Source: Syntrophomonadaceae bacterium
Lineage (GTDB): Bacteria > Bacillota > Dethiobacteria > DTU022 > PWGO01
Length of the DNA: 35,014 nucleotides
Direction: 5' to 3'
Assembly (NCBI GenBank): GCA_003550565.1
Contig: PUKQ01000063.1
Location: forward strand, 1-35,014
Numbering within the stretch: the stretch's first letter is position 1; every line of letters begins with the position of its first letter. Below are positions 24,817-27,453 of the stretch, in pieces. Below the pieces are notes generated by a model, which had not been told where the DNA came from, searched no databases, and worked only from the letters and a program-made list of their open reading frames with translations. Both the position numbers and the translations under genes were made by a program.

Positions 24817-27453
24817 TTATCTTCTACTGCCGGAATATTCCTTTCGAAGGTTTTTTCTGGCTTTAATAACCGCATTCCACCTTTCTGCTGTAAGGGGAAG
24901 ATCAAAACTTTTTAAGGTGGCCAATTTAAACCCGTGTTTTTGAGCCAGTTTTTGAGTATAAAGAATGCTTTCCATGTTTATCCCCGAAGAACCGAGGCTC
25001 ATATGTCGGTAATCTTGCTCCAGGGCCAGCAGCATAGTTTCTGACATGCAGGCGTATGCCTGGCCTTCCTCAAAACCAAAATTCCACCCCAAAGAAGGAA
25101 GCCCGGGAATTTCTACCACTCCTCCTTCTATGACCAGTACATCGGGGCGGTTATGGATGACTTCTTTGCTAATATTAGAAGGTCTGGAAATATCGCATAC
25201 AAGGGCTCCCGGCTTAACAACGTCAGAAGTGATTAAAGAATTGGTGGTGTTGGTGGCGCTAATTATCACGTCTGCTTTTGGCAGTTCGGTGTAAAGATCT
25301 GTGGAAACTATTACCGGCAACCCGTTTTTCTGAGACCGGGCAAATTCTGTAAATTCTTTGGCAGGGGCATTTGCCGTCGGCAAATTTTCCATCCGCGAAA
25401 CTTTGTCTCCCAAAGAACCCGCAGCAAAAGTATGCCCTCCTTCGAGCATGGTCGATATATGCCTGTATATCTCAGCGGCGCTGTTAGCTAACCTGCTAAT
25501 GCTGGAGTCTCCATTTTGTGGGTTGCCGATGAGGATCAAACGGGCCGCTTTTTCTGCCATTAGGACGGCAGTTCCTTTCCCTATGGAACCGGCAGCTCCC
25601 ACAATGGCAACTTCAGCTTTCTCCGGCTCTTCGTTCATTTTTTGCAGTGCTTCCTTTACTGCTTCTACAGCGGAAACCACGGTGTAACTGTTACCCGTAG
25701 TTAGGGGCACGCCCATATTTTTTAAATAGAGCCCTCCCATGGATGCTACGGAAGTATATGCCCCCAGGCCCACAATTTGAGCTCCCCTCTCGTGAGCCAG
25801 GTTGATTGCTTCCTGGAGTTCTGCCAGCACTTCTTTGCGGGGCAAGGAAGCCAGTTCTTCTGCGGTCCGGGGAATGGCTATGAATTCTCCGTAAGCTTTG
25901 CTGCCGCATTTGGAAACAATACGGGTTCCGGAGATAACGAAAGGCTTGACCATATCATTCCATCGACCGGTCAGTTCTTCCAGTTCTTCAGCATTAAAAA
26001 CAGAAAGGCTTTCATCGAATTCATGGTAATTTTCCAGGTTCACGGGGTGTACCAGGAAAGCAAACCTTCCTTCATTTTCATCCCCCGTAGGAGCAACCTG
26101 CTTTTTGGGGACGGGCGGCTCGTACGTAGGGCACTCTTCTTGTTTTTTACCGATTAAAAATGCCAGCAGTTTGCCTGTATTGGCTTCTTCCAGAACCTGC
26201 AGCAAGTTTTCGATGCTCTCCAGAGCCTGCCGGCATTGTTCTTGCGTTATGTATAAGGGCGGCTCAATGCGGATCACCCTGTTTCCGTTAAGGGTGGGCG
26301 CTACCCGCAGATTTTCAACGTTTAGCAAGTAAGAAGATATAATGGGGGTTAGCAGTTCTTGCTCGGCCATAATACCCAGCAGACTGCCGGGAAACTTCTC
26401 CCGGGTAACGTCGAACTCTAATCCCAGCATTAAACCTTGTCCCCTCACCTGATAGATAATGCCCGGGTATTTTTCCTGCAGTCTGAGTAACCCCGATTTC
26501 AAGTAATCTCCGGTTGCTTTTATTTGCTGCAGCAATTTCTTGTTATCCTCAGTAAGAAGCTCCACCGCTTTGATACCTGCCCGGCAGGCGGGGGGATTGC
26601 CGGCAAAGGTGGATGAATGTTTATGGGCGAAATCTTCGTTATAAGCTTTATCCCCGCTGATGCAAGCGCCGATGGGTATAACTCCTCCGCTCAGGGCTTT
26701 AGCCAGTAGCAAAATGTCGGGGGAAATGCCTTCATTTTCGCAAACAAACATGGAACCGGTGCGTCCCAGCCCGGTTTGAATTTCATCTAGAACCAGCAGA
26801 ACACCGTAGCGGTCACATATATCCCTTACTTCCTGCAGGTACCCTTTCGGAGGCTCTACTATTCCTCCTTCTCCCTGGATAGGTTCCAGGAGAAATGCGG
26901 CATAATAATGGGGATTTTTCTCCAGTTCTGCTTCCAGGGCGGCTGCATCGCCAAACTTAACGGTATGGAAATTTTCCACCGGCGTGGCAAAAACATCCTG
27001 GTAGTTATGATTTCCCGTAGCGGAAAGCGCTCCCAGCGTTTTACCGTGGAAACTGTTTTCCGTGGAAAGAATGCCTTTCCTGCCGCTGGCAGATCTACAC
27101 ATTTTTATGGCTGCTTCTGCGGCTTCCGCGCAGCTGTTGGTAAAAGTAACATATTTAAGTTCTTCCGGGGTAATTTCAATTAATTTTTGGGCCAGTTCAC
27201 CGGCGGCGTTTAATTTGGAAGGCTGCACAAAACCGGGTTCCCTATTCTCATAAGCATCAATAATTGCCCCCCAGATATCCCGCGGGTTATGCCCAAACGG
27301 CAGGGCGCCATATGCGGCAATAAAATCAAGGTAGGCATTGCCTTCTTCATCGTAAAGATAACAACCTTCACCCCGGGTAAAACTTTTGTCCATCTTAATA
27401 TTTTCCAGCATTTCACCTAGATAAGGATTTACGTATTGAGTAAAAGGATGCAT
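24817..27453 (-). CDS. Class-III aminotransferase fused to an acyl-ACP reductase-like domain
   Basis: Residues 1-430 are a PLP-dependent class-III aminotransferase. They include VLDEIQTGLGRTG with D223, the Schiff-base lysine K252 in LLAKALSGG, and the STFAGNPPACRAG loop. Residues 462-850 resemble the cyanobacterial long-chain acyl-ACP reductase (AAR). They include FAFLVHPVNLENY at their start, the Rossmann loop GAAGSIG (619-625), TTGNSYTVVSAVEA, EGGVVEIPG, and YACMSETMLL with C802 at the position of the AAR acyl-binding cysteine (C294 in the Synechococcus enzyme). AAR reduces acyl thioesters to aldehydes, so the fused enzyme could make an amine from an acyl thioester. The substrate is not known. 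AGGAGG stands 8 bases before the ATG. It has its own promoter and does not share an operon. Confidence 0.9.
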   Translation of the reverse strand: MHPFTQYVNPYLGEMLENIKMDKSFTRGEGCYLYDEEGNAYLDFIAAYGALPFGHNPRDIWGAIIDAYENREPGFVQPSKLNAAGELAQKLIEITPEELKYVTFTNSCAEAAEAAIKMCRSASGRKGILSTENSFHGKTLGALSATGNHNYQDVFATPVENFHTVKFGDAAALEAELEKNPHYYAAFLLEPIQGEGGIVEPPKGYLQEVRDICDRYGVLLVLDEIQTGLGRTGSMFVCENEGISPDILLLAKALSGGVIPIGACISGDKAYNEDFAHKHSSTFAGNPPACRAGIKAVELLTEDNKKLLQQIKATGDYLKSGLLRLQEKYPGIIYQVRGQGLMLGLEFDVTREKFPGSLLGIMAEQELLTPIISSYLLNVENLRVAPTLNGNRVIRIEPPLYITQEQCRQALESIENLLQVLEEANTGKLLAFLIGKKQEECPTYEPPVPKKQVAPTGDENEGRFAFLVHPVNLENYHEFDESLSVFNAEELEELTGRWNDMVKPFVISGTRIVSKCGSKAYGEFIAIPRTAEELASLPRKEVLAELQEAINLAHERGAQIVGLGAYTSVASMGGLYLKNMGVPLTTGNSYTVVSAVEAVKEALQKMNEEPEKAEVAIVGAAGSIGKGTAVLMAEKAARLILIGNPQNGDSSISRLANSAAEIYRHISTMLEGGHTFAAGSLGDKVSRMENLPTANAPAKEFTEFARSQKNGLPVIVSTDLYTELPKADVIISATNTTNSLITSDVVKPGALVCDISRPSNISKEVIHNRPDVLVIEGGVVEIPGLPSLGWNFGFEEGQAYACMSETMLLALEQDYRHMSLGSSGINMESILYTQKLAQKHGFKLATLKSFDLPLTAERWNAVIKARKNLRKEYSGSRR

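Follow-up and report, generated by a model that had tools for sequence, protein, structure and literature searches.

The window analyzed here is a stretch of 35,014 nucleotides from a Syntrophomonadaceae bacterium of the phylum Bacillota (assembly GCA_003550565.1, contig PUKQ01000063.1). Its minus strand carries a gene for an 878-residue protein in which a class III aminotransferase is joined to a thioester reductase resembling the cyanobacterial acyl-acyl carrier protein (ACP) reductase, AAR. With a probability of roughly 0.77, this fusion is a bifunctional enzyme of the TamH type that would convert an acyl thioester to an aldehyde and the aldehyde to a primary amine, and within the phylum it would represent one state of a widespread module. 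The AAR domain would accept an acyl chain from a phosphopantetheine carrier, either ACP or coenzyme A (CoA), on C802 and reduce it with NADH bound in its Rossmann fold; the pyridoxal phosphate (PLP)-dependent aminotransferase (K252) would then aminate the freed aldehyde from an amino-acid donor. The other state of the module would comprise a stand-alone AAR, accompanied in many genomes by a separate class III aminotransferase.

A preliminary description of the gene had proposed a one-protein route to amines. The proposal was right in kind, and the reaction order it assumed is supported by analogy with PtTamH from the tambjamine YP1 pathway of Pseudoalteromonas tunicata, for which the same order has been demonstrated biochemically; such a route had, however, already been described for PtTamH and for PigE of prodigiosin biosynthesis, and the fusion is widespread. 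Since the pair of reactions is known from both enzymes, the window fusion adds to an existing enzyme type, and what looks new is the setting, a gene widely conserved in the phylum that replaces separate genes. To our knowledge this chemistry has otherwise been described only for pigment antibiotics. No reports of such fusions outside tambjamine and prodiginine work were found among the listings of one open-access library, which is no proof of their absence.

Domain identity and characterized relatives

Both domains and their catalytic residues are evident from the sequence. The N-terminal half matches the Pfam family Aminotran_3 (PF00202; E = 1.6e-90), with D223 and K252 in place, two residues whose roles are presumably those known from class III aminotransferases in general. 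The closest single-domain aminotransferase in the Protein Data Bank (PDB) is putrescine aminotransferase 4uox (E = 8.9e-76). Escherichia coli rows of this enzyme, YgjG, which lacks a reductase, are 37% identical to the window aminotransferase, and the putrescine aminotransferase models NF008570 and TIGR03372 score 325.2 and 281.6 bits, below their curated cut-offs of 612 and 658.65. For the C-terminal 441 residues, NCBIfam gives matches to the N-terminal part of PigE (E = 7.4e-47) and to the AAR model TIGR04058 (E = 7.1e-23); the remaining NCBIfam matches listed reflect weak Rossmann-fold likeness (best 9.4e-6), and glutamyl-tRNA reductase (TIGR01035) reaches 16 bits against a cut-off of 209.55. 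The best sequence matches of this half in the PDB are to PigE (4ppm, E = 7.1e-25) and to cyanobacterial AAR (6jzq, E = 1.8e-11). The likeness of the two halves to aminotransferase and AAR is far beyond chance. In the alignment, C802 is present in all 57 Bacillota fusions and in all six proteobacterial fusions of the same domain order (63/63). The protein thus shows the features of a TamH-type fusion, an N-terminal class III aminotransferase with a PLP lysine followed by an AAR-like domain with a GxxGxxG loop and a cysteine.

Structural comparison agrees with this assignment and is taken as support only. A full-length AlphaFold2 model built on a three-row alignment (pLDDT 49, pTM 0.41) was not used, while a model of the C-terminal half (pLDDT 62, pTM 0.62) is of good quality only for the Rossmann part. 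In Foldseek the top match of this second model is AAR (6jzq, 5.7e-15), with low whole-chain TM scores (0.37/0.46, root-mean-square deviation (rmsd) 17.5), and VIA-align superposes it on 6jzy over 178 residues with an rmsd of 2.4 Å and a Z of 18.4, compared with 13-14 for unrelated dehydrogenases. After AAR, the model next resembles in fold the 'TAD' domain of the carmabin pathway, solved with NAD(H) (9e4s, 9e4u, 9e4x, 9e50, 9e56), which the PDB assigns to an amino-acid adenylation domain protein and which one stand-alone AAR matches weakly in sequence. The profile, PDB, and fold searches therefore place the C-terminal domain with AAR and not in another dehydrogenase family, the outcome that the preliminary description had named as refuting. 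The reading frame, the aminotransferase with its two residues, and the AAR-like half with its loop and cysteine were likewise borne out, and the strand, which had not been given, is minus.

The same domain order occurs in PtTamH, a class III transaminase followed by an AAR-type thioester reductase with a GxxGxxG loop and a catalytic cysteine. As reported (PMC9594044), PtTamH together with the ligase-ACP protein TamA, encoded in the same pigment cluster, takes a C12 acid through C12-ACP to the C12 amine with NADH and glutamate; the aldehyde is seen when glutamate is left out, C12-CoA is not accepted, and distant homologues of similar make-up are named in Chitinimonas, Paucibacter, and Streptomyces. 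PtTamH is 941 residues long with a linker of about 50, whereas the window protein has 878 with a linker of about 33 and lacks tambjamine or prodiginine cluster neighbors. PigE, of the MAP branch of prodigiosin biosynthesis (4ppm, NF053554), has the same two domains in the opposite order, with the reductase first, and acts on a substituted octanoyl thioester (PMC8341465). Cyanobacterial AAR (6jzq, 6jzu, 6jzy, 6jzz; TIGR04058) shares its fold, loop, and cysteine (C294, corresponding to C802) with the C-terminal domain but lacks an insertion of about 50 residues, which lengthens the spacing from the loop to the second half of the domain from 60 residues in stand-alone AARs to 110 in the fusion.

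The two forms of the reductase also differ in residues that bear on cofactor choice. R189, R193, and R314 of SeAAR bind the extra phosphate of NADPH (PMC7089970); of these, R189 and R314 were compared here. The R189 column holds arginine in 23 and lysine in one of 24 stand-alone AARs, as against asparagine in 57/57 Bacillota fusions (N644 in the window). At R314 the stand-alone enzymes have arginine (22/24) or lysine (2/24), while the fusions have serine (40/57; S822 in the window), alanine (7/57), or other residues, and never arginine or lysine. Since both arginines are replaced in the fusion and kept in the stand-alone enzymes, and PtTamH is NADH-specific (PMC9594044), the fusion is predicted to use NADH, as shown for PtTamH, and the stand-alone AAR to use NADPH.

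Distribution of the fusion and fate of the separate genes

The whole 878-residue protein was used to search 398 genomes drawn evenly from the phylum, and the class was surveyed in 97 genomes. The fusion was matched in 51/398 phylum genomes (E ≤ 1e-180), spread over 19 family codes, and in 39/97 class genomes, some of them cut by contig ends (G028, G048, G062, and G069 in pieces). In the phylum sample 48 of the 51 matches extend from residue 8 or earlier to residue 845 or beyond; one (G395) reaches residue 662, and in two (G150, G274) the match as listed covers the aminotransferase half, with the reductase half in two pieces. Further diverged or split cases are G130, G280, and G456. An AAR-type reductase, stand-alone or fused, was found in 234/398 genomes. 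Named Bacillota carriers of the fusion are Dethiobacter sp. and Syntrophomonadaceae bacterium. Plasmid-borne fusions of the same order occur in Paraburkholderia phymatum (45%), Haematobacter, Pseudorhodobacter, Rhodovulum, Leisingera, and Photobacterium, whereas the PigE order is found in Pseudoalteromonas xiamenensis (L071, beside PigD) and Thioclava and, judging from match positions, seems to be present in Methylocystis.

Two observations concern individual carriers. In G456 (L153, C1:500000-513500) the aminotransferase and reductase are adjacent separate frames that are fused in G280 (L152), a genome of the same family code, a difference for which either gene fission or a frameshift could account. 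In Haematobacter massiliensis, a gene of the glycine/sarcosine/betaine reductase selenoprotein B family (L068:10804-11730) comes after the fusion on the plasmid.

The separate genes occupy two slots. A stand-alone AAR of about 375 residues is present in 47/58 fusion-free class genomes. Its slot A has the order helix-turn-helix (HTH) protein (190 residues), unknown protein (300 residues), AAR, greA, lysS, an arrangement seen in 17 of an initial set of 20 loci; of the exceptions, L043 and L044 end short of greA, and in L026 greA and lysS form a single frame that carries the lysS label. A separate aminotransferase of about 465 residues, 40-45% identical to that of the window under identity and length limits of the analyst's choice, is found in 28/97 class genomes. 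Its slot B has the order M16 peptidase, M16 peptidase, aminotransferase, proS, and 17 of 19 such loci adjoin M16 peptidases and/or proS. Two aminotransferases fall just outside the limits, both in fusion genomes: G014 (40%, in a 712-residue frame), which groups with the separate ones in the tree with weak support, and G053 (41%, 448 residues).

The fusion itself is found in either slot. In family f3 it sits in slot B, at most 1.5 kb from M16 or proS, in 23 genomes, and in 8 genomes it lies beside the slot-A 300-residue protein and/or the HTH protein: between the former and greA-lysS (G437, G304), after both with greA outside the stretch (G204, G433, G395), after the HTH protein only (G104, G188), or just upstream of the 300-residue protein in a slot that still holds a decayed AAR (G300). 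The window copy is in neither slot, as are 40 loci, some of them duplicates or plasmid loci, by the 1.5-kb distance rule. Because fusion rows cluster apart from separate and stand-alone rows in two trees, neither of which included the PtTamH sequence, one fusion of this order probably arose and was later inherited or passed on, settling in either slot. In the aminotransferase tree the fusions form one group (98/94) that includes the split G456 and leaves the separate enzymes outside, and in the AAR tree (quick method) a branch (97) separates the fusion AARs from all stand-alone and PigE rows. Two rows of PigE order branch apart in both trees.

The slots themselves gave further observations. 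In G395 (L060, C1:1859000-1875500) the fusion adjoins a separate aminotransferase like those of slot B, together with the 300-residue protein and the HTH protein. The 300-residue protein is present in 289/398 phylum and 86/97 class genomes, adjoins both the HTH protein and greA-lysS at the loci that were read (for example G000:C7:27787-28686 in L105, L030:5261-6157, and L045:4755-5681), and stays in place where AAR has been lost. Two members scanned against Pfam and NCBIfam had no match at E ≤ 0.01; it may be a protein annotated elsewhere as quinate 5-dehydrogenase, a name that no search here confirmed.

Gene replacement is apparent from the distribution of the two forms. In the class, a stand-alone AAR match at E ≤ 1e-20 occurs in 2/39 fusion genomes compared with 47/58 fusion-free ones (Fisher p 1e-14, ignoring kinship, with most fusions in clade f3). 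The 11/58 genomes with neither are mostly incomplete assemblies, and two of the 11 (G063, G064) have a piece of fusion-type aminotransferase (63% identical) at a contig end. Of the 51 fusion genomes in the phylum sample, 38 have only one AAR match at E ≤ 1e-12. Slot A could be inspected in 26 fusion genomes, and in 21, including the window's own (L105), greA directly follows the 300-residue protein; marker labels put the gap at 87-372 bases in 20 of these, and one short locus (G061) was judged by eye. The other slots hold other genes (G038, G036; by eye), a decayed AAR (G066, G032), or no sequence (G070).

Where a stand-alone AAR persists beside the fusion it has often lost its catalytic cysteine. 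In leftover copies from 15 fusion genomes the alignment column shows the cysteine lost in 11, kept in three, and unreadable in one (G007); it is replaced by tryptophan (G223, G106, G014), glycine (G074, G300), proline (G016, G024), methionine (G066), threonine (G032), aspartate (G001), or serine (G204). In fusion-free genomes the cysteine is kept in 24/24, as is the glycine loop (11/14 readable leftovers against 0/24, p 3e-7, kinship ignored). The column was used because an earlier motif scan gave false negatives (L064, L128, L167). The losses amount to five changes on the AAR tree. Two incomplete assemblies in which no fusion was found, G059 and G065, have lost the cysteine too and stand outside these counts. 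Further decayed AAR-like frames of 301-329 residues lie between the 300-residue protein and greA in G239, G299, G439, and G282 (L168:2775-3761, L176:4331-5302, L181:5032-5982, L183:5145-6047; profile E 1.8e-15 to 2.6e-11), and the cysteine position in them, where alignable, is occupied by another residue, on an insignificant stretch of alignment. Slot-A frames of 357 and 301 residues in G193 and G255 have no recognizable match. Decayed frames persist in several fusion genomes, and loss of the stand-alone gene is therefore not universal: most of the f3 genomes read have deleted it, and in others it often survives as a much-changed, probably inactive frame. On a plain reading, catalysis has passed from the stand-alone AAR to the fusion; the much-changed leftovers may have a second role, and the 301-329-residue frames are perhaps pseudoenzymes with a non-catalytic one.

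Substrate, direction, and alternative readings

The substrate is most likely a fatty acyl group and the product a fatty amine, because of kinship with AAR, PigE, and TamH and because of the ligases that accompany two proteobacterial relatives. Gene neighbors had at first been judged to give no clue to the substrate. This holds within the window, where those that Pfam and NCBIfam name are ABC transporter parts, a sigma factor, trkA, trkH, and holA; it does not hold for relatives, which show ligases in two Proteobacteria and conserved slots in Bacillota. On the Leisingera thetidis plasmid pBMJM1_4 (L070:9959-14143) a 1395-residue chain combines the aminotransferase, the AAR-type reductase, and an AMP-binding ligase, and possibly takes a fatty acid to an amine on one chain. 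In P. phymatum a 676-residue AMP-binding frame lies directly downstream of the fusion, followed by a P450. Acid activation, reduction, and amination are thus found together in both, by Pfam assignments. No pathway genes common to the surroundings of the fusion were seen across 23 loci, only slot genes.

The proposal is least secure as to the direction of the reactions and the length of the acyl chain. The same two steps might instead act on a short or functionalized acyl thioester, such as an aminoacyl or dicarboxylic mono-thioester, and yield a diamine, an amino acid, or a small amine. The putrescine aminotransferase matches described above would fit, as would the distant likeness of AAR to glutamyl-tRNA reductase, whose product passes to the PLP enzyme GSAM (PMC8341465). 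Such a substrate is nevertheless unlikely, given that related reductases use medium to long chains (stearoyl for SeAAR, PMC7089970; C12 for PtTamH, PMC9594044; and substituted octanoyl for PigE) and that proteobacterial relatives carry AMP-binding ligases. A catabolic enzyme, in which the aminotransferase would turn an amine into an aldehyde for an NAD-dependent acylating dehydrogenase to convert to the acyl thioester, would suit the predicted NAD(H)-type pocket and again the similarity to putrescine aminotransferase. It appears improbable, since PtTamH, SeAAR, and PigE all work in the reducing direction, the ligase neighbors of proteobacterial relatives supply acyl groups, and the stand-alone form keeps its NADPH arginines yet has disappeared or decayed in genomes with the fusion. 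An accidental fusion of enzymes from separate pathways, to which the isolation of the window gene between an ABC transporter and trkA and the many AAR genomes without such an aminotransferase might point, is very hard to credit when the domains are joined in two opposite orders and the fusion, retained across 19 family codes of the phylum sample, occurs at the slot of either separate gene.

Several observations weigh against the bifunctional TamH-type enzyme as part of a phylum-wide module. The C-terminal half scores 81.5 bits with TIGR04058, short of the cut-off of 449.7, and the top NCBIfam match of the whole protein, PigE NF053554, stands at 556.2 bits against an equivalog cut-off of 850. 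PigE performed thioester reduction and transamination in lysate, while the purified enzyme gave no reduction in vitro (PMC8341465). Among the 47 fusion-free class genomes with a stand-alone AAR, 21 have no full-length separate aminotransferase within the set limits (one, G049, has a contig-end piece), so AAR can occur without that partner; obligate pairing of the two was ruled out by these genomes and by G395. Fusion genomes contain other aminotransferases, 37-41% identical, and three of them (G085, G239, G276) have a leftover AAR with its cysteine. Most class fusions belong to the one clade f3, so the genome counts are not independent. Slots A and B offered no clue to the substrate.

The occurrence of an AAR-type reductase in 234/398 genomes, outside recognizable pigment clusters where examined, suggests that many of these bacteria convert carrier-bound acyl groups to an aldehyde, and probably to an amine, in a role that the literature searched does not describe. 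A broader proposal, offered tentatively and at somewhat less than even odds, is that a large part of the phylum has an undescribed pathway from acyl thioester through aldehyde to amine, encoded either by unlinked genes for an NADPH-type AAR and an aminotransferase or by an NADH-type fusion that has repeatedly taken over and left dead AAR genes behind; its product would perhaps be an alkylamine or aminolipid, a hitherto unnoticed cell constituent and not an antibiotic. The replacement pattern makes the proposed two-gene pathway of the phylum directly testable, and the fusion hints at which separately encoded enzymes cooperate. Cysteine loss in leftover AAR copies is a natural knock-out experiment, and the fusion enzymes are candidate catalysts for the conversion of fatty acids to amines.

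Features of the gene and its surroundings

The translation is free of stops on the minus strand, and an AGGAGGT a few bases 5' of the ATG in the window sequence provides a good ribosome-binding site. A plus-strand reading of 24817-27453 was ruled out, as stops interrupt the frame. An ABC transporter lies on one side of the gene and trkA on the other.

Table 1. Positions in the window of the fusion gene, its domains, and selected residues.
Feature	Coordinates	Strand	Basis
Aminotransferase-AAR fusion gene, 878 aa	24817..27453	minus	ATG at 27453, stop ends at 24817; stop-free translation
Class III aminotransferase domain, residues 25-417	26203..27381	minus	PF00202, E 1.6e-90
D223, aspartate of DEIQTG motif	26785..26787	minus	sequence position
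K252, PLP lysine (presumed role)	26698..26700	minus	sequence position
Interdomain linker, residues 431-463 (approximate boundaries)	26065..26163	minus	gap between both domain matches
AAR-type thioester reductase domain, residues 464-863	24865..26064	minus	TIGR04058, PigE N-terminal part, 4ppm/6jzq, Foldseek
Dinucleotide loop GAAGSIG, residues 619-625 (GxxGxxG; G619/G622/G625)	25579..25599	minus	sequence
N644, equivalent of SeAAR R189 (NADPH phosphate)	25522..25524	minus	alignment column
Insertion of ~50 residues, ~646-695 (approximate), not in stand-alone AARs	25369..25518	minus	110 vs 60 residues
C802, predicted acyl-binding cysteine (= SeAAR C294, PtTamH C887; PMC7089970, PMC9594044)	25048..25050	minus	alignment
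S822, equivalent of SeAAR R314 (NADPH phosphate)	24988..24990	minus	alignment

No link to sporulation was seen, the window's own genome and two others (G009, G012) having the fusion and no SpoIVA match. The window's genome (G000) is a 96% complete draft, and its organism is perhaps not spore-forming. Across the phylum sample SpoIVA was matched in 334/398 genomes, compared with 234/398 for the AAR-type reductase.

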